Origin: Microbacterium sp. SL75
Lineage (GTDB): Bacteria > Actinomycetota > Actinomycetes > Actinomycetales > Microbacteriaceae
Direction of reading: 5' to 3'
Length of the DNA stretch: 64,000 bases
Assembly (NCBI RefSeq): GCF_026625865.1
Contig: NZ_CP113067.1
Span: 1,488,001-1,552,000, forward strand
The notes below the pieces were generated by a model. It was not told where the DNA came from and did no database searches. It saw nothing but the letters and a program-made list of their open reading frames with translations. Shown here in pieces: positions 4,964 to 64,000 of the stretch. The position numbers were made by a program, and so were the translations under genes. Positions within the stretch are counted from its first letter, which is position 1; the number at the start of each line of letters is the position of its first letter.

Positions 4964-6606
4964 CGGATGCCATGACCCCGCCGACCGAGACCACCACCGC
5001 CGCCGCCGGGCCGGTGCCGACCCCGCCGGAGCCCGGCACGGCGCCGATTCCCGCCGACCTGCGCGCCGCGTTCGACGCGTACGAGCGCGCGATCGTCGCG
5101 AACGACCTCGACGCGCTCGACGCCTTCTTCGCGCCCGGGCCCGACACCCTGCGCGGCGACCCGGCGGGACTTCTCGTCGGGCACGACGCGATCAGCGGGT
5201 TCCGGTCGCTGCGCGGAGGCGTCCCCCCGCGGGACATCACCGAGGTGCACTACCGGCCGCTCTCGCCGGATGCCGCCCTTCTCATGTCGGTCTCGCGCTT
5301 CCACGGCGGAGGCCGCGGCCTGCAGACCCAGGTGTGGCAGCGGTTCGACGGCCGATGGCTCATCACCGCGGCCCACGTCGCACCGCGTACGCCCCCGTTC
5401 GACCGCACGATCTGGCGCAGCGTCGGCGACCCCTTCCAGCAGGGCGCGTGGGAGGGACCGCTCGCGGGCCTGACCGTCGCGGTGAAGGACCTGTTCGCGA
5501 TCGCAGGCTTCCGCATCGGGGCGGGCAACCCGACGTACCTCGAACAGGCGCGCCCCGAGAAGGTCACGGCCCCCGCCGTCGCCGACCTGCTCCGCGCCGG
5601 GGCGTCGCTGCGCGGGATCGCCCGCACCGACGAGTTCGCCTACTCGATCGCCGGCGACAACGTGCACTACGGCACCCCGCCCAACGGCGCGGTGGTCGGC
5701 GCCCTCCCCGGCGGCTCGTCGAGCGGACCGGCCTCCGCCGTGGCCGTCGGCCACGCCGACATCGGTCTCGCGACCGACACGGCCGGCTCCATCCGCGTTC
5801 CCGCGTCGTACCAGGGCCTGTGGGGACTCCGCACGACCCACGACCTCGTTCCGCGCCAGGGCATGCTCCCGCTCGCGCAGTCGTTCGACACGATCGGCTG
5901 GCTGACGCGCGACGGAGAGACCCTCCACCGTGTCGCCGAGTGGTGCCTGAGCTACGACGGCTCGTTCTCGACCGAGAACGTCCAGGGCGCCTCCGGCGAA
6001 GACCTCCCGTGGCGCTTCCTCGTGCCCGAGGAGATCCTCGCGTGCGTGGAGCCCTCGACCCGCGAGGCGTTCTCGCGTCTGCTCGCCGGGCTTTCGGCAT
6101 CCGACGACCCGCCGACCTTCCGGGCGGTGTCGAGCGGAGATCTCGATGCCGCGTTCACCGCGTTCCGCACGGTGCAGGGCGCCGAAGCGTGGCGCAACGA
6201 CGGCGAGTGGCTGCGTGCGCACCCCGGGGCCGTGGGTCCCGCCGTCGCCGAGCGTTTCGACGTCGCCTCGCGCATCACCGCCGCCGACGAAGCGGCCGCG
6301 CGAGAGGATCTCGAACCGATAGCCGCGCACCTGACCGAACTGGTCGACGCCGCCGTGCTGATCTTCCCGACGGTGCCCGGTCCCGCGCCGCAGCGCACCG
6401 CCGACGTGGATGCCGTGCGCGCCGCGACGCTGCGCATGACGGCTCCCGCGGCGATCGCGGGGCTGCCCGCGATATCGGTGCCGCTGCTCACCGTCGACGG
6501 CTCCCCGGTCGGAGTCTGCCTCGTCTCGCGCGCCGGTACCGACATCGCGCTCGTGCGCCTCGCCCGGCGCCTCGCCGAGGCCGCCGGGGCGGGGGTCGGT
6601 CGGTGA
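4960..6606 (+). CDS. AtzH-like domain fused to amidase-signature hydrolase
   Basis: The 548-residue protein joins two modules. Residues ~25-145 form an AtzH/SnoaL-like fold (DUF3225 type; AFDAYERAIVANDLDALDAFF is its start). Residues ~160-545 form an amidase-signature enzyme. The amidase Ser-cisSer-Lys triad is visible: Lys in TVAVKDLF, the cis-Ser in GGSSSG, and the nucleophile Ser in TAGSIRVPAS. Related AtzE-type amidases act on carboxybiuret or ureido compounds, and AtzH homologues act beside them. In an allantoin operon a ureido or allophanate-like amide is plausible, but the substrate is inferred. Start is a GTG overlapping the preceding small ORF. Confidence 0.85.
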   Translation: MTDAMTPPTETTTAAAGPVPTPPEPGTAPIPADLRAAFDAYERAIVANDLDALDAFFAPGPDTLRGDPAGLLVGHDAISGFRSLRGGVPPRDITEVHYRPLSPDAALLMSVSRFHGGGRGLQTQVWQRFDGRWLITAAHVAPRTPPFDRTIWRSVGDPFQQGAWEGPLAGLTVAVKDLFAIAGFRIGAGNPTYLEQARPEKVTAPAVADLLRAGASLRGIARTDEFAYSIAGDNVHYGTPPNGAVVGALPGGSSSGPASAVAVGHADIGLATDTAGSIRVPASYQGLWGLRTTHDLVPRQGMLPLAQSFDTIGWLTRDGETLHRVAEWCLSYDGSFSTENVQGASGEDLPWRFLVPEEILACVEPSTREAFSRLLAGLSASDDPPTFRAVSSGDLDAAFTAFRTVQGAEAWRNDGEWLRAHPGAVGPAVAERFDVASRITAADEAAAREDLEPIAAHLTELVDAAVLIFPTVPGPAPQRTADVDAVRAATLRMTAPAAIAGLPAISVPLLTVDGSPVGVCLVSRAGTDIALVRLARRLAEAAGAGVGR

Positions 6607-6634
6607 CCGCCCTGTCGCGCCGCGGCCGGGCCGA

Positions 6635-6706
6635 ACTCCTGAGAAATCTCACCGTGGCCATGGGGGCGGTGGCACTCGTCCCCACTTCGGTCAGAAACTC
6701 AGGAGT
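6635..6706. repeat. ACTCCTGAG palindrome, copy 1
   Basis: A 72-bp intergenic element is bounded by ACTCCTGAG and CTCAGGAGT in inverted orientation, with an imperfect interior (GGCCATGG-type centre). A second copy with the same ends lies at 16176-16258. It may be a hairpin terminator or a small mobile palindrome. Confidence 0.6.
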
Positions 6707-6778
6707 CACGCACCGCCCCACCGGCGGCCCGGATCCGATCCTCTCGCCCACCACCCGTTCCCGCATCACGGAGTCCTG

Positions 6779-8011
6779 ATGTCCCACCTCCCCGGTCCGA
6801 TCGACCCGCCCGCCCGCCTGCTGATGGGCCCCGGCCCGATCTCGGCGTACCCCAGCGTGCTGCGCGCGATGGGGGCACCCCTCGTCGGCCAGTACGACCC
6901 GTTCATGACGGCGACGATGACCGAGACGCAAGAGCTGTACCGGCAGGTCTGGGCGACCGACAACGACGCCACGGTGCTCGTCGACGGGACGAGCCGAGCG
7001 GGCATCGAAGCCGCGATGGTCTCGCTCATCCGCCCCGGCGATCGTGTGCTCGTGCCCGTGTTCGGCCGTTTCGGCCACCTCCTCGCCGAGATCGCCGAGC
7101 GCGCTCTCGCCGAGGTGCACACGATCGAGGTGCCGTGGGGACAGGTGTTCCCGGTGTCCGCGATCCGCGAGGCGATCGAGCGGGTGAAGCCGCATCTCGT
7201 CGCGTGCGTGCAGGGCGACACCTCGACCACGATGCTCCAGCCGCTCGACGAGATCGGTGAGATCTGCCGCGCCCACGGCGCTCTGTTCTACACCGACGCC
7301 ACCGCCTCGCTCGGCGGCAACCCCTTCGAGATGGACGCCTGGGGCCTGGATGCCGCGACCGCGGGCCTGCAGAAGTGCCTCGGCGGCCCCTCGGGTTCGG
7401 CACCGCTGAGCCTGTCCGACCGCGCCGTCGAAGTGGTGCGCTCGCGCGCCCGCGTCGAGGCCGGTATCCGGGAGGAGGGCGACGCCTCGGCATCCGACTT
7501 CATCCGCTCGAACTACTTCGACCTCGCGATGATCCTCGACTACTGGGGGCCGCGCCGCCTCAACCACCACACCGAGGCGACGACCATGCTCTACGGCGCG
7601 CGGGAGTGCGCCCGCGTGCTGCTCCTCGAGGGGCGGGATGCCGTGATCGCCCGTCACCGGCTGCACGGCGACGCGATGCTCGCCGGCGTGGAGGGCCTGG
7701 GGCTCACCGTCTTCGGCGACGTGGCCCACAAGATGACCAACGTGGTGGCGGTGGAGATCCCGGATGCCGTGGTCGGCGACGCCGTGCGCAGCGAGCTGCT
7801 CAGCGACTTCGGCATCGAGATCGGCACCTCGTTCGGTCCGTTGCACGGCCGGGTCTGGCGCATCGGGACGATGGGCTACAACGCCCGCACCGACGCCGTG
7901 CTGACCACCCTCGCCGCTCTCGAGACGGTGCTGCGGCGCCACGGTGCGGCGGTGCCGGCGGGCGGGGGCGTCGAGGCGGCCCAGGGCGTCTACGCGGCGG
8001 CTCGGTCGTGA
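6779..8011 (+). CDS. pucG: (S)-ureidoglycine-glyoxylate aminotransferase-like class V aminotransferase
   Basis: This PLP enzyme (410 residues) belongs to the alanine-glyoxylate/serine-pyruvate class V group. The stretches VGQYDPF, VDGTSRAGIEA, VFGRFGHLLAEIAERA and GLQKCLGGPSG closely match Bacillus PucG as I remember it. Lys199 in LQKCLGG is the PLP lysine. PucG transfers the amino group of unstable ureidoglycine, the product of allantoate amidohydrolase, to glyoxylate. Its position directly before the AllC gene agrees. The ATG follows a 172-bp gap holding a palindrome, so the operon may restart here. A general alanine-glyoxylate aminotransferase is the alternative. Confidence 0.85.
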   Translation: MSHLPGPIDPPARLLMGPGPISAYPSVLRAMGAPLVGQYDPFMTATMTETQELYRQVWATDNDATVLVDGTSRAGIEAAMVSLIRPGDRVLVPVFGRFGHLLAEIAERALAEVHTIEVPWGQVFPVSAIREAIERVKPHLVACVQGDTSTTMLQPLDEIGEICRAHGALFYTDATASLGGNPFEMDAWGLDAATAGLQKCLGGPSGSAPLSLSDRAVEVVRSRARVEAGIREEGDASASDFIRSNYFDLAMILDYWGPRRLNHHTEATTMLYGARECARVLLLEGRDAVIARHRLHGDAMLAGVEGLGLTVFGDVAHKMTNVVAVEIPDAVVGDAVRSELLSDFGIEIGTSFGPLHGRVWRIGTMGYNARTDAVLTTLAALETVLRRHGAAVPAGGGVEAAQGVYAAARS

Positions 8012-14397: not shown

Positions 14398-15012
14398 TCA
14401 ACCCGCCAGGATCCGGCCCGACCAGCGGCCGTCGGCGAGCGTGTAGTGCTGGCGCGTGCTCTGCCCGATCGGGTCGCCGCGCCAGAACGTCAGGGTGACC
14501 GGGCGCAGGCGGAATCCCGCCCACCGCTCCGGTGGCTCGAGCTCGGGGTGGGCGTCGGAGAACTCCGCCCACAGGTGGTGCCGCGCCTCGGCCGGAAGGT
14601 GCGCGTTCTCGTGGGTGTTGAGCCACGCGAGCAGCTGCAGGTAACGGGACCGCTCGCGATAGACGGCCGCCGCCTCGGCGGCGCTCACCCGCTCGACGAT
14701 TCCGCGCACGACGAGCTGGCGGCCGACCTCGGGCCACGCCACGGCCATCGCCGCGACCGGGTTGGCGGCGATCTCGGCGACCTTCGTGCTCGCCGAGTCG
14801 GTGTGGAAGTAGACGCCCGTGGCATCCCGGTCGCTGATCAGGACGTGCCGGAGCGAAGGGATGCCGTCGAGCCCGACGGTCGAGAGAGCGGCGAGGGGGC
14901 GCAGTTCCCCCTCGTGGGGCGGGAGCCACTGCTGGACGAGCTCCAGCGGATCGTCGACGAGCGCGTCGATGTCGTCGACGTCGGAACCGAACGTGGTGCC
15001 GGCCGTGATCAT
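14398..15012 (-). CDS. pyridoxamine 5'-phosphate oxidase-like flavoprotein
   Basis: The 204-residue protein has the PNPOx split-barrel pattern: LSTVGLDGIPSLRHVLI, GVYFHTDSASTKVAEIAANP, and a C-terminal WAGFRLRPVTLTFWRG segment like the PdxH dimerisation region. PdxH oxidises pyridoxamine phosphate to PLP using FMN. A PLP-dependent step (PucG) exists in the region, but this gene heads the molybdo-hydroxylase operon and may act on another substrate. Start is the ATG at 15012, preceded by GGAGGT with good spacing. Confidence 0.75.
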   Translation of the reverse strand: MITAGTTFGSDVDDIDALVDDPLELVQQWLPPHEGELRPLAALSTVGLDGIPSLRHVLISDRDATGVYFHTDSASTKVAEIAANPVAAMAVAWPEVGRQLVVRGIVERVSAAEAAAVYRERSRYLQLLAWLNTHENAHLPAEARHHLWAEFSDAHPELEPPERWAGFRLRPVTLTFWRGDPIGQSTRQHYTLADGRWSGRILAG

Positions 15013-15063
15013 GGCCACCTCCGGGGGAGCTGCTGCGGGTATCGCCGAGCGTAGGCAGCGCGC

Positions 15064-15101
15064 GTTTCGGCGATGTTGCCGCCATGAACATTCGTCGAAA
15101 C
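15064..15101. promoter_or_regulatory. double GlnR-type box in divergent promoter region
   Basis: Four 5-mers sit exactly 11 bp apart: GTTTC (15064), GTTGC (15075), GAACA (15086) and GAAAC (15097). Read leftward, GCAAC-n6-GAAAC controls the oxidase/xanthine dehydrogenase operon. Read rightward, GAACA-n6-GAAAC faces the folate-enzyme gene. The phase matches GlnR sites with two half-site pairs. Confidence 0.55.
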
Positions 15102-15123
15102 ACGCGCTCCGTACACTCCGGTC

Positions 15124-16146
15124 ATGACCGTGCTGCCCCTGATCGACGCGTGCCCGAAGCGCATGGAGTACGGACCCTGCGGCGGGGTCGGCTTCGACGG
15201 ATCGTGCGAGATCGACGCCGCGCACGCGTGCGTCTTCCTGCCCCGGCGGACGGTGCCCTGGTCCGGCATCGACCGCGTGGCCGCCCCGCCGCCCGCGCCT
15301 CGCACAGAAGCGGCCGAGCGGACTCTCGCCGACCTGGGCACCCGACCCTGGGTCGTGGCCGACCTGCCCGCGCGGGCCCTCAGCGTCTCGTCGATCGACG
15401 CGTGCGCGGGGGTTCTCGTCGGAGAAGTGGATGCCGTCCTCGCCGGCGACGCGGGAAGCGCGCGCGTGCAGTTCCCTCCCGCGTACCGCGCCCACCTGCT
15501 GCAGCGACGAGGCCTGCGCGTGTGGACCGGCCTGAACATGCGCGACCGCAACCGGGTGGCGATCGAGGGGGAGCTCGCCGCCCTCGCGGTCGAGGGGGTG
15601 GCGGGTGTGCATTGCGTCACCGGCGACCACACCCGCACCGGCCACCGGCCCGATGCCGCCCCCGTCTTCGACCTCGACTCCACCGAGGCCGCCGCCCTCG
15701 CCCGGGCCGCAGGTCACGTCGTCTCGGTCGCCGCCTCGCCCGCCGCGCCGCCGGTCGACCGGCGCGCCGAACGACTGCGCGAGAAGGCTCGGGCCGGGGC
15801 CGACGTCTGCTTCGTGAACCACGCCGGAGGGGCGGAGCCCGTGCGCCGGTTCATCGACGAGGTCGCAGACGGCATCCGATTCATCCCGTGCGTGCCGGTG
15901 GTCGTCGACCACGCCTCCGCCGACCTGCTGGAGTCGTTCACCACGCTGGCTCTGCCCGAGGGGTTCCTCGAGCGCGTGCGCGGCGCCCGCGACCCGCGCG
16001 CCGAGGGCATCGCCCTCGCCACAGCCCTCGCCGAGGAGATGCTCGCGCTGCCCGGCGTCGTCGGTGTGAACCTGTCGGGCGGGCGTGACGGCGCCGAGGA
16101 ATCGTTCGCGGAGGCGATGGCGGAGGTGGCACGGCGGCTTCGGTGA
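15124..16146 (+). CDS. methylenetetrahydrofolate reductase-like protein with N-terminal CPKxMxxGPCGG domain
   Basis: The 340-residue product begins with ACPKRMEYGPCGGVGFDGSC, the Cys-rich motif normally found in the MTHFR C-terminal domain (PF12225 type). Here it precedes a TIM-barrel region like MetF (VTGDHTRTGH, DVCFVNHAGGAEPVRRFID, GFLERVRGA). It probably binds a folate or moves a C1 unit, but the FAD-binding residues are not obvious. It is transcribed divergently from the xanthine dehydrogenase operon and shares a GlnR-type control region. Its role in purine catabolism is unknown. One possibility is handling of formyl or formimino carbon. Confidence 0.7.
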   Translation: MTVLPLIDACPKRMEYGPCGGVGFDGSCEIDAAHACVFLPRRTVPWSGIDRVAAPPPAPRTEAAERTLADLGTRPWVVADLPARALSVSSIDACAGVLVGEVDAVLAGDAGSARVQFPPAYRAHLLQRRGLRVWTGLNMRDRNRVAIEGELAALAVEGVAGVHCVTGDHTRTGHRPDAAPVFDLDSTEAAALARAAGHVVSVAASPAAPPVDRRAERLREKARAGADVCFVNHAGGAEPVRRFIDEVADGIRFIPCVPVVVDHASADLLESFTTLALPEGFLERVRGARDPRAEGIALATALAEEMLALPGVVGVNLSGGRDGAEESFAEAMAEVARRLR

Positions 16147-57174: not shown

Positions 57175-57597
57175 TCAGCGGTTGAGGCGCCGAGTGACGG
57201 CGTCTATGCGGGCTCGAAGTTCTCGGGAGCGGAAGGGTTTGGTGACGTAGTCGTCCGCGCCGGCGTCGAAGGCCGAGACCTTGTCGGCGTCGTCGTGCAG
57301 GCCGGAGATGACGATGATGTGCGCGCTGGATCCGGCGGATCGTATGCGTCGAATGGCTTCGATGCCGTCCATGCCGGGAAGGGTCAGGTCCATCGTGACC
57401 AGGTCGGGGCGGATGGCCAGCGCCGCGCGAGCGCCTTCGGCTCCGTTGTCGAAGGCGTCGGTCGCGTATCCGGCGCTCTCGATGATTCGCGTGAGCACGG
57501 ACCGGACGTGCGGATCATCGTCGACGACGACAGCGGTGGCGCAGGCAGAGAAGTTCGAAGGGCTTGTGGGTTCTGAACGCTTGTCGAGAAGAGTCAT
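57175..57597 (-). CDS. single-domain response regulator
   Basis: The 140-residue protein is a receiver domain alone: VVVDDDPHVRSVLTRII (acidic pocket), the phospho-Asp in TMDLTLPGMDG, Thr/Ser in IIVISGL and Lys in YVTKPFRSRELRARID. There is no output domain, so it works through protein contact or phosphotransfer. ATG 57597 follows AGGTGACC on its own strand only weakly. It lies 91 bp downstream of the signal peptidase gene in the same direction and may belong to that module. Confidence 0.88.
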   Translation of the reverse strand: MTLLDKRSEPTSPSNFSACATAVVVDDDPHVRSVLTRIIESAGYATDAFDNGAEGARAALAIRPDLVTMDLTLPGMDGIEAIRRIRSAGSSAHIIVISGLHDDADKVSAFDAGADDYVTKPFRSRELRARIDAVTRRLNR

Positions 57598-57688: not shown

Positions 57689-58375
57689 TCACCACTGCGG
57701 GGACCGCCGCCGTATGGGACCGTTCTGTTCTTGGGGGGCGAGGAGGGAGGGCTTTTCGGTGTGGGGATGCCGGTCTCCGGCGAGCCCGAAAACGTCCCCG
57801 AGCACCCGGTCCGTGTCCTCCGCCGAGGTGGCCGGGGGGTCCTTCTGGTCCGCGGGGTCGGTATCACCGTCTTCCCGACCCCCGTCCTCGCCGTCCTCGC
57901 CGTCCTTGGCGTCGGCGGGCCGACGTTCGAGGGGAAGCAGGAGAAGGGCGAGAACGAGGACGGCAAGGCTGATACGCGCGGGGGTGGTTTGGACGTAGGC
58001 GAGAACGGCGGCGAGCGGGCCGCCGATGTGGCCGCGGACGGCGCCTACGAGCTGGTCGTAGGAGATCGTGTCGGGGTCCGCCGCGGTGTTGCCGTCGCCC
58101 TTCAGGAGGGCCTCACCGTCGGTGATCTCTTGGATGCGGTGGGTATACATGCTTCCGTCGGGGCGTCCGACGGTGACGACGTGGCCGGGTTGAAAGTCGT
58201 CGGGGTGGGGGTCGCCGATGAGAACAAGGTCGCCGAACTCGTAGGTGGGCGTCATGGACTTCCCATCGACGACGACGAGCTGGGTCCCGGTGGCCAGAGT
58301 GATGGCGGCGGGGGCGATGAGCAGGGCGAGCAACGCGCCTACGATGCTCCAACGGAGGAAGGAGAGGATGCGCAT
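57689..58375 (-). CDS. sipW: SipW-like (ER-type) signal peptidase I
   Basis: The 228-residue membrane protease has a first helix at residues ~8-30, then the catalytic Ser40 in GKSMTPTY. GDLVLIG and His79 in YTHRIQ follow, with His in place of the bacterial Lys, as in archaeal, eukaryotic and Bacillus SipW enzymes. LLKGDGN follows, then a second helix near residues 124-150 and a charged Asp/Glu-rich tail. It should cleave SipW-cognate signal peptides such as those of the products at 61554 and 62330. It starts at ATG 58375 (GTG-rich leader) 47 bp after an exported-protein-like gene. Confidence 0.88.
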   Translation of the reverse strand: MRILSFLRWSIVGALLALLIAPAAITLATGTQLVVVDGKSMTPTYEFGDLVLIGDPHPDDFQPGHVVTVGRPDGSMYTHRIQEITDGEALLKGDGNTAADPDTISYDQLVGAVRGHIGGPLAAVLAYVQTTPARISLAVLVLALLLLPLERRPADAKDGEDGEDGGREDGDTDPADQKDPPATSAEDTDRVLGDVFGLAGDRHPHTEKPSLLAPQEQNGPIRRRSPQW

Positions 58376-58422
58376 TGTGCCTCCAGGTGAGTATCGGGTG
58401 ATGGCCGGTGGGGTGGAGCGCG

Positions 58423-58995
58423 TCACACGCGCGATAGCAGGCGCGCGCGCGGTTGCGGACGTTCGGGGCGCGAGGAGGACTGAGCGGTCGATGCCTCGAG
58501 GCAGAGGTGCGTGATGTTGGCGGGGCGGGGGACCCGGACGCGGAAGTGCACTGTTTGGGTCGCTGAGGGCAGGAGGGGCGAGACGGCGCAGAACGCGGGG
58601 TTACCGGACGTGTCGATGGTCAGCGGTGTTGACCACGTGGCACCGTCGGTCGTGCTGGCGGCGAGTGTTACTTCGCGCGCATCCGATGCACTGCTGCGCA
58701 GTTCAATACCGAGAATCCAGTCGATTGCCTTGCCGCTCGTGTTGTGCGCATCGATGGCGAATGCGTATGCGTCCGCTTGCGCATCGAATGCCGGAGCGGT
58801 GAGCGAAGAGGTGGTGTGCGCGGTGATGCGGCCGCCGTCCGTGTGTCCGAGACGGATTGTGTCGTGCGTGCACGAGTCAGGGGTGGGGGTCACGGCGGAC
58901 GAGGACGGCGCAGCGTGGTCGACGCCGAGCGTGAGGAGAACGACAGCAGACGTGGCCGTGTGCGGTCCCTGAGGGTTCGGCCGGACAATGCTCAT
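58423..58995 (-). CDS. camelysin/TasA-like domain protein upstream of sipW
   Basis: The 190-residue product has a weak hydrophobic N-terminus (SAVVLLTLGVD) followed by a beta-rich region. FAIDAHNTSGKAIDWILGIELRSS and ASTTDGATWSTPLTI parallel INVRNNGTAAVDWKVQMAST and YSTDNGSTWSKTW of the protein at 61554, so the two share a domain. It lacks the clear TGAYFTADKT signal found in the others. Start ATG 58995 has GGAAGGAG before it. It is the first gene of the leftward operon with sipW. A subunit or minor component of a surface fibre is possible, by analogy only. Confidence 0.6.
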   Translation of the reverse strand: MSIVRPNPQGPHTATSAVVLLTLGVDHAAPSSSAVTPTPDSCTHDTIRLGHTDGGRITAHTTSSLTAPAFDAQADAYAFAIDAHNTSGKAIDWILGIELRSSASDAREVTLAASTTDGATWSTPLTIDTSGNPAFCAVSPLLPSATQTVHFRVRVPRPANITHLCLEASTAQSSSRPERPQPRARLLSRV

Positions 58996-59415
58996 GCCGC
59001 CGCTCCTTCCGGGGTGTGGGTGGGTGCCGCTCGGTAGCTTGAGTACTCGTCGGCTGACACGCGGACGACGGTTCCGGCACCTGACCGGGCCTCCTCCTGA
59101 CGCATGCTCACTATCGTAAAAACACATAACGGATCAAAACGGTGCGTATCGGATCTTACGCACCATAGCAGGAATCGCCTCGATCGTCCCGTCTGTTTGG
59201 GGGAACGCTCCGCGAAGTGCGCGCGGCACCCTCGTCCGTAGAGTGCGAGAGTCGAACCAGGTCCGTCCGCAACGCCCATGACGTTCACGTGTCTTCTGGT
59301 CGACGAGCGGTCGTCCCCTGCGTGCCGGGAGCGCTGATTGCCGCCGGATATTAGCGGTGGGGCCCGCGCGGCGGGGGCGTTATGAGCAAGTTATTCAGAT
59401 CCTTAGAATCTTCGC
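58996..59415. promoter_or_regulatory. 420-bp gene-free, AT-richer control region
   Basis: This spacer separates divergent genes. It holds a perfect 8-bp inverted repeat GGTGCGTA/TACGCACC (59141-59164) next to an A-rich stretch (CGTAAAAACACATAACGGATC). TAGAAT occurs at 59404, seven bases before the GTG of the next gene, which may be leaderless. No ORF of substance is visible here. Confidence 0.45.
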
Positions 59416-60153
59416 GTGCTAGCTTCCGAGGTCCTGCAGCTGCTGACCACGCCTGCCAATGTGCCGTCCATCGCTCACTCAGGTGCGCCGAGTATTCGCC
59501 GGAGCATTCTTCGCGTCGATTATGTGACCGATGAGCACGCCGCGCGCAAGCTCCTTCCGGAGCCCCTGCATCTGCCTCTGATTCCGCGCGCCAGCGTGTT
59601 CTTCACGCAGTTCTTCAACTCGCACGGGGATGTTCCCCTCCTCGAAGTGACGCAGTCGATCGAAGCGGTCAGCTCGGCAGGCGTCGTGGGGGACTACATC
59701 CAGGCGGTCTACACGGACAATGTGACCTCGATCATCCACAACCGTGAGGCCTACCTGCAGCCCGTGCTGTACGGCGTAGGGTCGATCGTGCACCGCGACG
59801 GAGCGAGCAACTTCTCGCTGACCGTGAACGATACCGTCGTCGTTCGCGGGAGTGCGGGCTACCGAAGCGAGCCGATGTTCGCCGACGACGCCGTCGAGTT
59901 CCTGCAGCGCCCCAAATTCTTCCTGAAGGTGCTCGGGCGGCCGGCATTGGGTGAGCCAGCGAAGCCCACTCTCTTCATGCTGCGCAGCGCAAAGCTCGAG
60001 GTCGGCGACGCCTACCGGGTGCCGTCGCGGCTTACCCTCGACGGCCACATCATGGCCCCGTTCGACCAGCTGCCCGTACGTCACATCGACTCGTGTCACA
60101 CATTCGAAACCACGTGGTCGATCGGCGAAACGGAAGTCCTGCACCGCTACTGA
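59416..60153 (+). CDS. acetoacetate decarboxylase-like protein lacking the catalytic lysine
   Basis: The 245-residue protein resembles the ADC fold: RRSILRVDYVTDEHAARKLLPEPL near the N-terminus (here split over ~25 residues), then an equivalent of the GREMYGYPKK core. That core here reads NREAYLQPVLYG, so the Schiff-base Lys is absent. Many ADC-like proteins with such changes have other or unknown activities. It starts at GTG 59416; a GTG at 59461 is possible. It lies in the low-G+C section but has no obvious role in secretion. Confidence 0.5.
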   Translation: MLASEVLQLLTTPANVPSIAHSGAPSIRRSILRVDYVTDEHAARKLLPEPLHLPLIPRASVFFTQFFNSHGDVPLLEVTQSIEAVSSAGVVGDYIQAVYTDNVTSIIHNREAYLQPVLYGVGSIVHRDGASNFSLTVNDTVVVRGSAGYRSEPMFADDAVEFLQRPKFFLKVLGRPALGEPAKPTLFMLRSAKLEVGDAYRVPSRLTLDGHIMAPFDQLPVRHIDSCHTFETTWSIGETEVLHRY

Positions 60154-60275
60154 CTTCCCTGGGAGCCCGCGCGGCAGGCTTCGCAACGCGCGGCGACGTT
60201 ACAGCTGGCTCTCCTCGTTGCGCGGACGCTGCCGCCTCAGCGTCCCGTGCGAACGGAGTCGAGCGTCGATCCTGT

Positions 60276-60518
60276 TCAGCTCGAGGGCGTCGCCACCTCA
60301 GGGGTGCTCCGGTCAGCCACGTTCGAGGTGCTCGATATGTACTCGACCACCTCGTCTCGCACGATGACCCACTTCGAGCCGATGTGGTACGCGGGCAGCT
60401 CGCCGGACTGCAAGTACTCATAGACGGTCTTGCTGTTCAACCCGAGCACCTCGGCGACGTCTCTGGCGGAAAGGATCGGCGGATATCCAGCGAACAGGTG
60501 CTCGAGGTGCTTAGGCAT
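60276..60518 (-). CDS. excisionase-type helix-turn-helix protein (HTH_17)
   Basis: The 80-residue protein has a MerR-like winged helix (ILSARDVAEVLGLNSKTVYE, LPAYHIGSKWVIVRDEVVEY). I chose ATG 60518, with GGGAG upstream; an in-frame ATG at 60545 would add nine residues. Small HTH_17 proteins act as excisionases or as local transcription factors. It is divergent from the exported-protein genes, 200 bp away, so regulation of that operon is a fair guess. No integrase is nearby. Confidence 0.75.
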   Translation of the reverse strand: MPKHLEHLFAGYPPILSARDVAEVLGLNSKTVYEYLQSGELPAYHIGSKWVIVRDEVVEYISSTSNVADRSTPEVATPSS

Positions 60519-60641
60519 GGCGCTCCCGGGGGGTAACAGACTCATCACAGTTTACGGGCACCATGCCCAATAACGGCCTGATCCGGCGCGATTTTGCGTG
60601 AAGCGCACTACATCGGGTGTAGAGCTCGAGGCGGAAAAGAG

Positions 60642-60671
60642 TTGTTAGGGGCTGTTAACGTCGGCTATGGT
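60642..60671 (+). promoter_or_regulatory. candidate promoter of exported-protein genes
   Basis: TTGTTA and TATGGT lie 18 bp apart, 45 bp before the GTG at 60716. The spacer has GTTAAC and the leader has two CCGTTTCA copies (from about 60681) that could bind a regulator. Confidence 0.45.
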
Positions 60672-60715
60672 CCACCAGAGTCCGTTTCAACCCGTTTCAT
60701 ACCAAAGGATCTTCT

Positions 60716-61408
60716 GTGGATTGTTCTGTTCCGGTCGTGCCCTCCCCGGCAGCGCCCGCGATCACGGCCTCGGGAGGGTCCGGACTTGCGGCAACAGGCT
60801 CTCCCATGGACGTCATACTCGCCTGCGCCATCGCGCTCGTCCTTCTCGCGGGTGGCGTCATGGCTTTGGCCCGGTCGCGTCGGCGTCGCCGTGAAGCGCT
60901 GCCCTCTTCCACGGCGGCCGCGCCTGGCGTGGGGCTCGCTCTGTCGAGTGTGCTGGGCGTGATCTTGCTCTTGGGGGCCTTCTCCCCGTCACAGGCCGCG
61001 CATGCCGCTCCGGAACAGTGCGATGTCATCTCGGTATCTGGTGTGCAGATCGACGCGACCGTGCTCGCCGGCGGAGTGATCCAGCTCGTACCCGGCGGTC
61101 AGCCTGCCGTCGTTCGCGCGTCCGTGACGAACTCCACCACCGTGCCCGTGACCCTCACCGCGATCGCTCGCACCGATAACGCCGTCCCCCTCGCGACACA
61201 GATCGTGTGGAAGAGCGAGAGCTCGAGTGGTTCGGCCGTCGAGTCCAGCTTGGGTGACTCCGACTCGCACTCCCTCGGGACCTTGGCTCCGGGTGAGAGC
61301 ACCACGGTGACGTTCGCGGTGAACTTGCCCGCCTCGGTCGGGAATGAGTACCAGGGCCAAACAGTCCCCCTCAGCCTGCTCGTCCAGGCCGTCCAGCAGG
61401 GCTTCTAA
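60716..61408 (+). CDS. exported protein with N-terminal LAATG/membrane segment and camelysin-like domain
   Basis: The 230-residue product has an unusual order. Residues ~20-60 read like a sortase sorting signal: GLAATGSPMD, a hydrophobic helix, then SRRRRRE-like basic residues. A second hydrophobic segment (LALSSVLGVILLLGAF) with AHAAPEQC after it looks like a signal peptide. The rest is a beta-rich domain ending QGQTVPLSLLVQAVQQGF, similar to AQGKTLTFSTVVNAIQAG of the next protein. The GTG at 60716 has AAAGGA before it; a later ATG at 60806 would drop the LAATG part. Probably a surface protein of the SipW module. Confidence 0.6.
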   Translation: MDCSVPVVPSPAAPAITASGGSGLAATGSPMDVILACAIALVLLAGGVMALARSRRRRREALPSSTAAAPGVGLALSSVLGVILLLGAFSPSQAAHAAPEQCDVISVSGVQIDATVLAGGVIQLVPGGQPAVVRASVTNSTTVPVTLTAIARTDNAVPLATQIVWKSESSSGSAVESSLGDSDSHSLGTLAPGESTTVTFAVNLPASVGNEYQGQTVPLSLLVQAVQQGF

Positions 61409-61553
61409 CACCCGCACCTCGCGCGCCCGCATCTGCGGGCTGCGCCCCCACCTTCTCGTCGAGCCGCTACGCCACCTTCGTTCGCACTCGTCGAGCCCCT
61501 CAGCCTCCCTTTCCGACCCGAAGCACGACTCACCACTAAAGAAAGCAGATCCC

Positions 61554-62129
61554 ATGTCCACCACCAAGCGCTCCTTCTCGAAGAAGAAGGTCCTCGTCGC
61601 CTCCCTCGCCCTGCTCACTATGGGCCTGGGCGGCACGGTTGCCACCGGCGCGTACTTCACCGCCGACAAGACCGTTTCCAGCAACACCCTGGCGTCCGGC
61701 ACCGTCGTGATCGGGAACATCGGCGACGACGCGTCCTCCACAGCGGCGCTGTCGTTCACCAACGTGCTCCCGGTTGCGTCCTCGGACGTCGCGACCAAGG
61801 CCAAGACGTTCAACATCAACGTCCGCAACAACGGAACGGCGGCCGTTGACTGGAAGGTCCAGATGGCTTCCACCTCGAGCGACTTCGCCAAGCAGGTCAA
61901 CGTCGAGTACAGCACCGACAATGGCTCGACCTGGTCGAAGACATGGACTGCTGACGACCTCCGAAACGTCTCCATCCCGGGCACCTCCTCGCTCGCTGCT
62001 GGCGGAACCGCGGTGATCAAGTTCCGTGCGTGGCTGCCCGCCGCCACCGACAACACAGCCCAGGGTAAAACTCTTACGTTCTCGACCGTCGTGAACGCCA
62101 TCCAGGCCGGCGCTCCGTTCTCGTCCTGA
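61554..62129 (+). CDS. SipW-cognate exported protein, TasA/camelysin-like
   Basis: The 191-residue precursor has a SipW-cognate signal: basic start (SFSKKKVLVAS), a hydrophobic core, then ATGAYFTADKTVSSNTLASG just after the predicted cut. This matches the alternate-signal families described near SipW in actinobacteria. The mature domain is beta-rich (FNINVRNNGTAAVDWKVQM, YSTDNGSTWSKTWTADD). Such proteins form fibres or surface layers in Bacillus; here the role is inferred. ATG 61554 follows AAAGAAAG. A perfect hairpin ends the gene. Confidence 0.82.
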   Translation: MSTTKRSFSKKKVLVASLALLTMGLGGTVATGAYFTADKTVSSNTLASGTVVIGNIGDDASSTAALSFTNVLPVASSDVATKAKTFNINVRNNGTAAVDWKVQMASTSSDFAKQVNVEYSTDNGSTWSKTWTADDLRNVSIPGTSSLAAGGTAVIKFRAWLPAATDNTAQGKTLTFSTVVNAIQAGAPFSS

Positions 62130-62137
62130 CCCTCGCG

Positions 62138-62168
62138 CGTGGGCGCCGGCAGCACGCTGGCGCCCACG
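62138..62168 (+). terminator. hairpin terminator after the TasA-like gene
   Basis: CGTGGGCGCC and GGCGCCCACG pair perfectly with an 11-base loop, nine bases after the stop. Confidence 0.65.
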
Positions 62169-62329
62169 TCTCCGTGCGCGGCGAGTCGTCAGCCCGTATC
62201 CGTCGATGGGTTGTCCTTCCGCGTAGGCCGAGCTGTCTGCCGCGCCTCCAATTTTCACGCGTGTCCCTACATCCTCGGCAGCACGCGATCACCCGAACGT
62301 CCCCCTTAGTGCCCCTCGTAGGAGATGAC

Positions 62330-64000
62330 ATGCCACCCGCCGCCGCCACCTATGCCCCTCGGCCGCGACAGGCCCGTGGACGGCGTCTCGCGACGACGCT
62401 TCTCATGGGCGTTCTCGCAACGGGAGTCATCTCGACCCCCGCCGCAACGGGAGCCTGGTTCACCGCAGACAAAACGGTGAGCAGCAACTCGTTGACGGCG
62501 GCCACCCTTCAGCCCGTCAGCGGCCTAAAAGCCGTCAAGTCCTCGATCGGTGTGGATGTGTCGTGGACGAGCGCACTGCAACAGTCGTGGGCAACCGCTA
62601 ACTCGGTCACCTCTGAACCGACGTACACCGTCACCCGCACCATCGACGGTGCCAACCCGACGGCGATCAGCACAGGTACGAACCTTTCGGTGACTGACCA
62701 GTACGGCAAATCGGTCTCCATCAAGCCCACCGTAATCGACTCTGGATCATCGATTGCCGGCTACATCAGGAGTGACGGGACCCTCATGATGTGGGGGTCA
62801 AGCTCCGCATCAGGGCTCGCTAACGCGTCCAGGCAGTCAAGCAGTGTACCGATTGCCGCCAGCATTCCGGCGGGAAACCCGATCATCAACATGGCGCTGA
62901 ACGGGTGGTCAGGCGCGGCCGTGAGTTCTACCGGGAAACTGTTCACTTGGGGCCCGGGCCTACATGGCGGCAAGAACTGCAGCGACGAGTCATCCCCGCC
63001 TGACACCATTCAACTCCCCGCAGGAGTGACGCCCATCGCCGCGTCGCCGGGTGTCGGCTCCTACTGCTCACTCCTCGTTCTCGACTCCACCGGCCAGCTG
63101 TGGCAACGCGGTGGATCGGTCGGCGGTACCTCCACCACCTTCTTCAAAGTGAACCTGCCCGGTGGTCGTACGGTGAAACAGCTCACGAGGCGAGAAACGG
63201 TTCTTGCCTCAGATGGCACGGTCTGGTCGTGGGGTAACAACAGCCGAGGTCAATTCGGGAACGGGACCACAACCGGAAGCTCCACGCCGGTTCAGGCCAT
63301 CTTTCCAGAGGGAACGGTGATAACTTCCGTATCTGCAGACTCGCAAGCTCCCTCTTTCGTCGCAATTGCCTCAGGGGGCCGGGACCTGTATGCATGGGGA
63401 TATAACGATTCGTACGGCGCACTGGGGTTGGGAAGCGTTAAAGAGGAGAACATTCTCACGCCCACCCGCATGAAAACACCCGAGAATCAATGGTTTTCAG
63501 ATGCACAGATCAAGTCATCCACAACCGTCATTGTTTCAGGATCGGACAGCAGCAAGCTGTACAGCGTCGGCTACGCCTCCAACGGGCGCGCAGGCAACGG
63601 AGTAATCAACAATACAGCTACCGGAAACTTCATCCAGATGGATGTTGCGTCGAATATCTCCGCCACCAAACTCGCTACCGGAAACTCGCAGGCATACTTC
63701 GTCGACAAAAGCACCAACAATCTCTACGGGTGGGGCTATGCCGTGGATGGATCCACTGGCGCTGCTCTTTTCGGGAACAATCAGACTTCCCCGGATGTTT
63801 ACGCGAAACCCACTCAGGTGCAAACAAATCTGCAACTATCGTCAGATAGCGCCCGGTATTTCTGTGGAGTTGGAACCACGTCGAATAGTGACGGTTATTG
63901 TGTCCCAAACGGGGTTGCCGAGTACTCCGTCACGTATCCGTATCAGGCTTGGACGTCCTCCTCCGCGAAAGCGACCGCGAGTGCACAATCCCCTCCGCCG
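62330..64000 (+). CDS. SipW-cognate exported RCC1-repeat protein, 3' end beyond the window
   Basis: The frame runs from ATG 62330 (GGAG five bases before it) to the last base without a stop, 557 codons. A basic N-terminus and hydrophobic core lead to ATGAWFTADKTVSSNSL, almost the same as the signal of the preceding protein. The body has repeats of the RCC1/BNR-propeller type: LMMWGSSSASGLANAS, WSWGNNSRGQFGNGTT, YAWGYNDSYGALGLG, YSVGYASNGRAGNG and LYGWGYAVDGSTGAALFG. At least six blades can be followed. It is likely a large secreted or wall-attached adhesive or structural protein. Base composition is lower in G+C than elsewhere in the window. Confidence 0.8.
   Translation, partial: MPPAAATYAPRPRQARGRRLATTLLMGVLATGVISTPAATGAWFTADKTVSSNSLTAATLQPVSGLKAVKSSIGVDVSWTSALQQSWATANSVTSEPTYTVTRTIDGANPTAISTGTNLSVTDQYGKSVSIKPTVIDSGSSIAGYIRSDGTLMMWGSSSASGLANASRQSSSVPIAASIPAGNPIINMALNGWSGAAVSSTGKLFTWGPGLHGGKNCSDESSPPDTIQLPAGVTPIAASPGVGSYCSLLVLDSTGQLWQRGGSVGGTSTTFFKVNLPGGRTVKQLTRRETVLASDGTVWSWGNNSRGQFGNGTTTGSSTPVQAIFPEGTVITSVSADSQAPSFVAIASGGRDLYAWGYNDSYGALGLGSVKEENILTPTRMKTPENQWFSDAQIKSSTTVIVSGSDSSKLYSVGYASNGRAGNGVINNTATGNFIQMDVASNISATKLATGNSQAYFVDKSTNNLYGWGYAVDGSTGAALFGNNQTSPDVYAKPTQVQTNLQLSSDSARYFCGVGTTSNSDGYCVPNGVAEYSVTYPYQAWTSSSAKATASAQSPPP

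Follow-up and report, generated by a model that had tools for sequence, protein, structure and literature searches.

The mature N-terminal strand of TasA (residues 28-38) completes the next subunit of the fibre, and TapA has in common with TasA only that N-terminus, according to passages of PMC9674648 and PMC10151520. Here we describe a locus that resembles this system in part. It lies in a 64,000-nucleotide stretch (the window; C1:1488001-1552000) of a 3.44-Mb Microbacterium genome, called G000 or the source genome below, and it brings together a SipW-type signal peptidase, TasA-like beta-domain proteins, an RCC1 beta-propeller protein and a protein starting at position 60716 (the 60716 protein) with a sorting-like motif near its N-terminus. 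We propose, with a probability of about 0.62, that the products of the locus form an extracellular fibre of TasA type, attached to the cell wall and displaying RCC1 beta-propellers; such a fibre might have an adhesive or biofilm role.

The proposed mechanism is as follows. The Ser-His peptidase would remove the signal peptides of the TasA-like and RCC1 proteins, exposing an N-terminal segment of the form A-Y/W-F-T-x-x-K-x-x-x-x-N, and this segment would fill in the beta-sandwich of the adjacent TasA-like subunit, the part played in TasA by its N-terminal strand. The TasA-like protein, which has both the donor segment and the sandwich, would form the shaft. Having the donor segment but lacking a recognised sandwich of this family, the RCC1 protein would sit only at one end, likely the tip; the 60716 protein, in which a sandwich and a sortase-type signal are present and such a donor segment is absent, would serve as the base anchored in the wall. 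Families, gene linkage, fusions, the division of RCC1 proteins by signal and the likeness of N-termini within loci are computed results; cleavage by this peptidase, strand exchange, the polarity of the fibre, sortase attachment and the biological role are inferred.

Components of the module

The peptidase (57689-58426, minus strand; alternative start ATG at 58375) reaches 65.5 bits with TIGR02228, whose curated cut-off is 51.85. Its translation contains GKSMTPT and YTHRI, making it a Ser-His and not a Ser-Lys enzyme; we take these motifs to hold the catalytic Ser and His. Against the Bacillus SipW equivalog model NF046067 it reaches 34.1 bits, under the cut-off of 190, so that it may work like SipW without being that equivalog. 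The cleavage region of the TasA-like protein at 61554-62129 (plus strand) is TGAYFTADKTVSSNTL, and that of the RCC1 protein at 62330-64000 (plus strand; gene end at 64003, 3 bases outside the window) is TGAWFTADKTVSSNSL: the two are identical at 14 of 16 residues, with the consensus TGA(Y/W)FTADKTVSSN(T/S)L, and the shared motif directly follows the hydrophobic stretch. A preliminary description of this DNA, made from the letters alone, had claimed a SipW-type module with cognate exported proteins that include an RCC1 protein, and the TIGR02228 score and the shared cleavage region confirm the observation; the claim also stands up in related genomes (see below). It had suggested a hidden Markov model search with SipW-cognate signal models. 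TIGR04088 (cut-off 19) matches 9 of 16 TasA-like proteins at E up to 1 (best 7e-6), but the 61554 protein itself, at 13.7 bits, stays under the cut-off, and the 62330 protein has no match; a second TasA-like protein outside the window (L009:14954-15568, minus strand) reaches 16.7 bits. This is resemblance and no membership by the curated cut-off.

When a profile of the 16 TasA-like proteins was compared with the PDB, TasA (5of1 and 8aur) gave the first two among the 17 matches listed, at E 6e-4 and 8e-4, in two colinear segments neither of which is significant alone. The TasA model NF046066 matches 2 of the 16 family members and Pfam M73/camelysin 6 of them (best 2e-4), in both cases with E up to 1 as the limit; the Pfam families listed for the 61554 protein alone do not include M73. 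By sequence relationship, the 61554 protein can be placed in the TasA/camelysin superfamily, and its donor-strand segment would span about residues 32-50. For its structure model (predicted local distance difference test, pLDDT, 68.7 overall, higher in the core), TasA (5of2) has the top query-normalised template modelling score, 0.49, among the 50 Foldseek matches listed. No function was read from the generic fold matches, for example to botulinum haemagglutinin and enterotoxin C-terminal domains.

The third beta-domain protein, with a divergent C-terminal end (58423-59127, minus strand), is TasA-like by alignment and by its E of 1.2e-8 to the 61554 protein in a search of the source genome. 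It was thought at the outset that the 58423 and 60716 proteins share beta-domain motifs with the 61554 protein as part of the exported set. The relationship holds, although for the 60716 protein taken alone it is weak (E 0.015) and becomes clearer through its family, but neither is an evident client of the peptidase: the 58423 protein has no SipW-type motif, and the 60716 protein has an ordinary AxA signal and none either. Elsewhere in the source genome lies an orphan TasA-like paralogue with 53% identity to the 61554 protein (L027:7319-8104, minus strand; C1:271318-271893), which adjoins an integrase-core (rve) transposase frame at 6302-7180. TafE (NF052522) was considered and rejected, its 19.4 bits being far below the cut-off of 155; nothing on TafE stood in our literature listing.

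RCC1 proteins and their export signals

The 62330 protein matches PF00415 at 74.9 bits (cut-off 21.7) and also PF25390; a TasA domain was not found in it. At other loci the two parts occur in one chain: TasA-RCC1 fusions, each with a SipW-type signal, a TasA-like domain and RCC1 repeats, are present three times in L125 and once in L066, and the repeats of all four are over a Pfam cut-off.

RCC1 proteins also divide by their signals, which were assigned by eye. A SipW-type signal is present in 19 of 23 RCC1 proteins that adjoin such a peptidase (3 others are Sec-type and 1 is unclear), whereas the 28 open frames of unlinked RCC1 proteins from other genomes (L134-L156) comprise 19 with a twin-arginine (Tat) signal, 3 Sec-type, 6 without a visible signal and 0 SipW-type. 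There are therefore two kinds of RCC1 export, and only one of them accompanies the module. The control was drawn from 79 genomes of the genus regardless of peptidase, with RCC1 in 13 genomes and 28 clusters by our own grouping, 3 of which lie within 10 kb of a TIGR02228 match; the unlinked status of L140, on a 5.3-kb contig, is uncertain. The least typical SipW-type signals are those of L031 (AYVD) and L091 (QFGD). A regular-expression check flagged 8 of 27 unlinked rows as SipW-type, at internal places; it put L134 and L147 (Sec by eye) with Tat, misplaced the linked L070, L125 and L126, and called L091 Sec. Outside the linked count stand two L185 proteins (SipW-type, on a contig that ends before any peptidase), the L081 proteins (the N-terminus of one is not visible), a C-terminal fragment in L083 (8370-9113), and L127/L132, which duplicate L066/L087. 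Three linked proteins, in L066 (12289), L125 (11817) and L184 (5962), were recognised as RCC1 by phmmer only, the others by Pfam as well.

Two propeller genes at other peptidase loci deserve mention. L084:3-8435 (minus strand, G348) encodes an RCC1 protein of about 2800 residues with 38 RCC1 stretches and a Sec-like signal, beside a SipW-type peptidase. In L082:10098-12934 (plus strand, G269), YVTN-type propellers take the place of RCC1 beside a SipW-type peptidase and a TasA-like gene.

Gene linkage across genomes

Homologues were gathered by whole-genome searches, and stretches were fetched around the peptidase matches and the 60716-family matches. At E up to 1e-10 the peptidase is found in 14 of 199 genomes drawn from the family and in 14 of 247 drawn from the genus, the source genome being included in both. 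A 60716-type protein with beta domain and front motif was found in 15 genomes, and in 11 of these the peptidase, a TasA-like protein, an RCC1 protein and the 60716-type protein are encoded in one stretch (G000, G440, G132, G475, G080, G122, G214, G269, G348, G379 and G1227; 4 genera, 7 of the genomes Microbacterium). Scattering of these genes in related genomes with no link to the SipW gene, which the preliminary description had named as the outcome that would speak against it, is thus not what we see. The order base-TasA-RCC1-peptidase recurs, for example, in L068, L083, L086 and L184. Among the other genomes, G346 has a peptidase locus without RCC1, its four RCC1 genes standing at a second locus where the stretch shows no peptidase, no RCC1 was seen in G158, and the contigs of G1260 and G436 are short. 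No further full-length 60716-type protein (E up to 1e-7) was found among 396 genomes of the order or 296 of the class; the order search gave one partial match, in G933.

The source genome encodes two further such peptidases, at 88.6 bits (over the TIGR02228 cut-off) and 43.7 bits (under it), and SipW-type clients, recognised by eye, adjoin each of them. One of these loci, L031, repeats the parts set, with four short SipW-type clients, an RCC1 protein, a beta-domain protein and the peptidase. Its RCC1 protein matches RCC1_2 at 35.4 bits (cut-off 22) and not PF00415, and its beta-domain protein ends in a C-terminal LAITG. Directly upstream of this second SipW-type cluster, L031:781-2226 (plus strand; C1:1704780-1706225) encodes a sigma-70 region 4 domain (PF08281, 29.7 bits), behind which come a hydrophobic segment, a region that is apparently exported and, at the C-terminus, a LAATG sorting-like signal.

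Matching of N-termini within loci

If the RCC1 protein docks as TasA does, its N-terminus should resemble the TasA-like N-terminus of its own locus. At 8 loci, the 20 residues counted from the cleavage region give a score of 379 when the RCC1 proteins are paired with the TasA-like proteins of their own loci, compared with a permutation mean of 292 (standard deviation 25); a fraction of 0.0002 of all permutations reaches 379, or 0.0008 when the window locus is left out. The control segments show no clear difference from chance (signal peptide, 0.19 and 0.11; next 40 residues, 0.11). The 8 loci are those with a SipW-type RCC1 protein and a TasA-like protein, leaving out near relatives (L025, L083, L185) and other peptidase types (L031, L089, L091); L066 and L125 have many TasA-like paralogues, of which two and one were given, respectively.

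These results bear on a rival view, which we consider unlikely: that the locus is an alternative export route only, in which the peptidase matures unrelated surface proteins that act singly and the shared segment is its recognition site. Such a view would fit the three peptidases of the source genome with their different clients, the orphan clients elsewhere in that genome (L027, L028, L029) and one relative (L079) that keeps the peptidase without a linked RCC1 gene. It agrees poorly with a within-locus likeness that the mature segment shows clearly and the signal peptide does not, although at 8 loci only, with the existence of TasA-RCC1 fusions and with the conservation of the gene set, TasA-like protein included, in 4 genera.

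Several observations nevertheless weigh against a fibre of TasA type. In the fold searches, many generic jelly-roll and immunoglobulin matches stand above TasA or level with it. The own-locus pattern of N-termini is not seen in L125 and L066, where the TasA-like paralogues are many; the loci number only 8, and the other segments are only a partial control for the shared ancestry of genes in one genome. The orphan RCC1 proteins L028 and L029 of the source genome are unlinked yet SipW-type. The source genome is itself that of a Microbacterium close to M. testaceum, and its closest named relative met is M. testaceum NBRC 12675 (L023; 99% identity of the 61554 protein). In that strain RCC1 is missing from the peptidase locus; the RCC1 genes are at a second locus (L025/L189), where no peptidase appears in the stretch seen, and the RCC1 proteins in L025 are SipW-type all the same. 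Because of this split and the three orphans of the source genome, linkage is frequent but not absolute.

The 60716 protein and a possible wall anchor

The 60716 protein (60716-61405, plus strand) begins MDCSVPVVPSPAAPAITASGGSGLAATG, with Cys3 in the tail and LAATG at residues 24-28 (tail and motif, 60716-60802, plus strand), and continues with a transmembrane helix, RRRRR, an ordinary signal peptide ending in AHA, and Cys102, where a beta domain with a TasA-like C-terminal pattern starts. The LAATG motif, the hydrophobic transmembrane stretch and the positive residues RRRRR are the elements of a sorting signal. In 20 proteins of this type the signal is at the N-terminus instead of the C-terminus, so that they are not filed as ordinary sortase substrates; a C-terminal anchor on the 60716 protein was likewise rejected, there being none in its sequence. 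A scan of 3882 open frames of at least 150 codons (many overlapping) found the arrangement 13 times, and the 20 proteins include those with altered motifs; L025, L083/L086 and L184/L185 are counted apart in this number, and the near-identical L079 and L081 copies are not counted. A Cys in the tail and another shortly after the signal peptide are present in 19 of the 20, among them all 4 from a later alignment search (L184, L185, L186 and L188); the exception is L058, which lacks both.

These paired cysteines suggest a sortase-anchored tail that is disulfide-tied to the domain, and we tentatively propose, at somewhat less than even odds, a split, inverted wall anchor. Sortase would use LAXT to join the short N-terminal tail, with 5-30 and mostly 15-30 residues ahead of the motif, to peptidoglycan, and signal peptidase would release the beta domain across the hairpin; the two cysteines, one in the tail and one just after the signal peptide, would then form a disulfide that ties the domain, and the TasA-RCC1 fibre on it, to the wall. 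Oxidative folding of pilins is established in Actinobacteria, according to a passage of PMC9974433. Because L101:1498-3213 (plus strand, G449) has this front, Cys pair included, joined to an exported protein of another, Pro-rich kind, the anchor may be portable.

A rival reading is that of TasA-like matrix fibres without a wall anchor, in which the 60716-type proteins would be TapA-like assembly factors and the LAXTG-like segment only a membrane hairpin. The B. cereus TasA/CalY system is called sortase-independent in a passage of PMC13082335, TapA is described as a donor of its N-terminus in a passage of PMC10151520, and some members have degenerate motifs (L066 ALTG, L071 LPQLG, L186 LSFTG), all of which would suit an unanchored fibre. 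With E up to 1 as the limit, however, the front parts are matched by NCBIfam sorting-signal models: NF058582 and NF058583 each in 11 of 14 members (best 9e-10 and 2e-7) and TIGR01167 in 7 of 14 (best 9e-6), the 60716 protein itself reaching 22-23 bits against NF058583 (cut-off 65). A related beta domain elsewhere carries LAXTG or a similar sorting-like motif at its C-terminus (L031, L075, L076, L089), and the source genome has two sortases, both more than 200 kb distant. We therefore regard the unanchored fibre as somewhat unlikely. In the family search with the whole-protein profile, 36 of 50 front-only matches run through a stop codon by our own count, as C-terminal sorting signals of other proteins would. 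The AlphaFold model of the 60716 protein (pLDDT 48) is too poor for a test of the anchor, and TasA is not among the fold matches listed for it.

It could also be argued that the LAATG segment is the fused relic of a small LAXTG protein and that translation starts at an internal ATG at 60861. NF058583 is a model, 54 positions long, of LAXTG proteins similar to the segment, the internal ATG precedes RRRRR, and the start codons are our own assignments. Yet the segment recurs in 20 proteins, with starts assigned at ATG (14), GTG (4) and TTG (2), and AAAGGA stands 6 bases before the GTG at 60716. The ratio of nonsynonymous to synonymous substitution (dN/dS) of the tail against L025 is 0.18, beside 0.21 for the beta domain, so the tail is under purifying selection in this comparison; three other pairs give 0.10, 0.46 and 0.46, on few changes. 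We judge a relic to be very improbable.

Two related arrangements were met on the way. In L058:2102-3496 (minus strand, G385), LAATG, a transmembrane stretch and arginines at the N-terminus precede a SipW-type signal (AAFTDK), without the Cys pair. L187:9156-11006 (minus strand, G218) is a single frame of 617 residues in which a TIGR02228-type peptidase leads into a stretch resembling a signal peptide, then a probable beta domain and, at the C-terminus, an LPWTG sorting-like signal; matched in the search for 60716-type proteins, it is a different thing.

Surroundings of the module

The module outruns the window and is bigger than first described. On stretch L009, which extends the view past the window (window position = L009 position + 52000), it continues with a YVTN-propeller protein bearing LAVTG at L009:12396-14327 and with the second TasA-like gene. 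Much of this part, L009:10184-16050 (window 62184 onward), is absent from or diverged in M. testaceum NBRC 12675: identity is 96-97% in the flanks and only 82% in the YVTN gene region, and most of L009 10184-12471 (the RCC1 gene) and L009 from about 14521 to 16050 (the second TasA-like gene included) have no counterpart at that place. It thus seems that the proteins carried by the fibre change more rapidly than the DNA around them.

A gene for a receiver-only response regulator (57175-57594, minus strand; PF00072, 104 bits) lies downstream of the peptidase gene and shares its strand. The preliminary description had a receiver and a helix-turn-helix (HTH) protein flank the module. The receiver gene does adjoin it, but neither looks like one of its parts: among the compared loci, a receiver gene stands next to the module only in L079 and L080, and the HTH gene is present only in the nearest relatives (L079, L081, L025/L189, L188). 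A regulatory role was accordingly rejected, the two genes not being conserved with the module.

Comparison with known systems

Our literature search returned no paper that joins SipW with RCC1, nothing related on RCC1 and Microbacterium as judged by title, and, among the papers listed, no TasA/SipW fibre described in Actinobacteria as judged on titles and abstract openings. If the proposed scheme is right, the range of TasA-type donor-strand fibres would come to include Actinobacteria, in a wall-anchored form that carries a propeller, and a class of bacterial RCC1 proteins would gain a place and a testable function. The 60716 protein would provide a second, differently built N-terminal sorting signal, in which the Cys pair accounts for how attachment could outlast the cutting of the tail.

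The described systems each share part of this arrangement. Gram-positive IgA1 metalloproteases with an N-terminal LPXTG likewise have a sorting motif near the N-terminus and then a long exported part (PMC9637739, in the passage available); their other domains differ, and the split, Cys-paired arrangement is absent from that passage. Sortase-built Gram-positive pili are wall-anchored fibres with base, shaft and tip, as stated in a passage of PMC11389406. Unlike them, the TasA-like and RCC1 proteins of the window have no C-terminal sorting signal in their sequences, so that no sortase-linked shaft is expected. The B. cereus TasA/CalY/CapP filaments, too, combine several structural subunits of TasA kind in one system; they differ in the sortase independence noted above. 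The likeness to the B. subtilis TapA-SipW-TasA system extends to a dedicated SipW-type peptidase, to a subunit of the TasA superfamily that has an aromatic residue close to where it is cut and, where TasA has its donor strand, an N-terminal segment, and to an accessory protein with nothing but this N-terminus in common, which is TapA in B. subtilis and the RCC1 protein here. Where B. subtilis has the immunoglobulin domain of TapA, the Microbacterium locus has an RCC1 propeller, and it adds, in Actinobacteria, a further beta-domain protein with a sortase-type signal.

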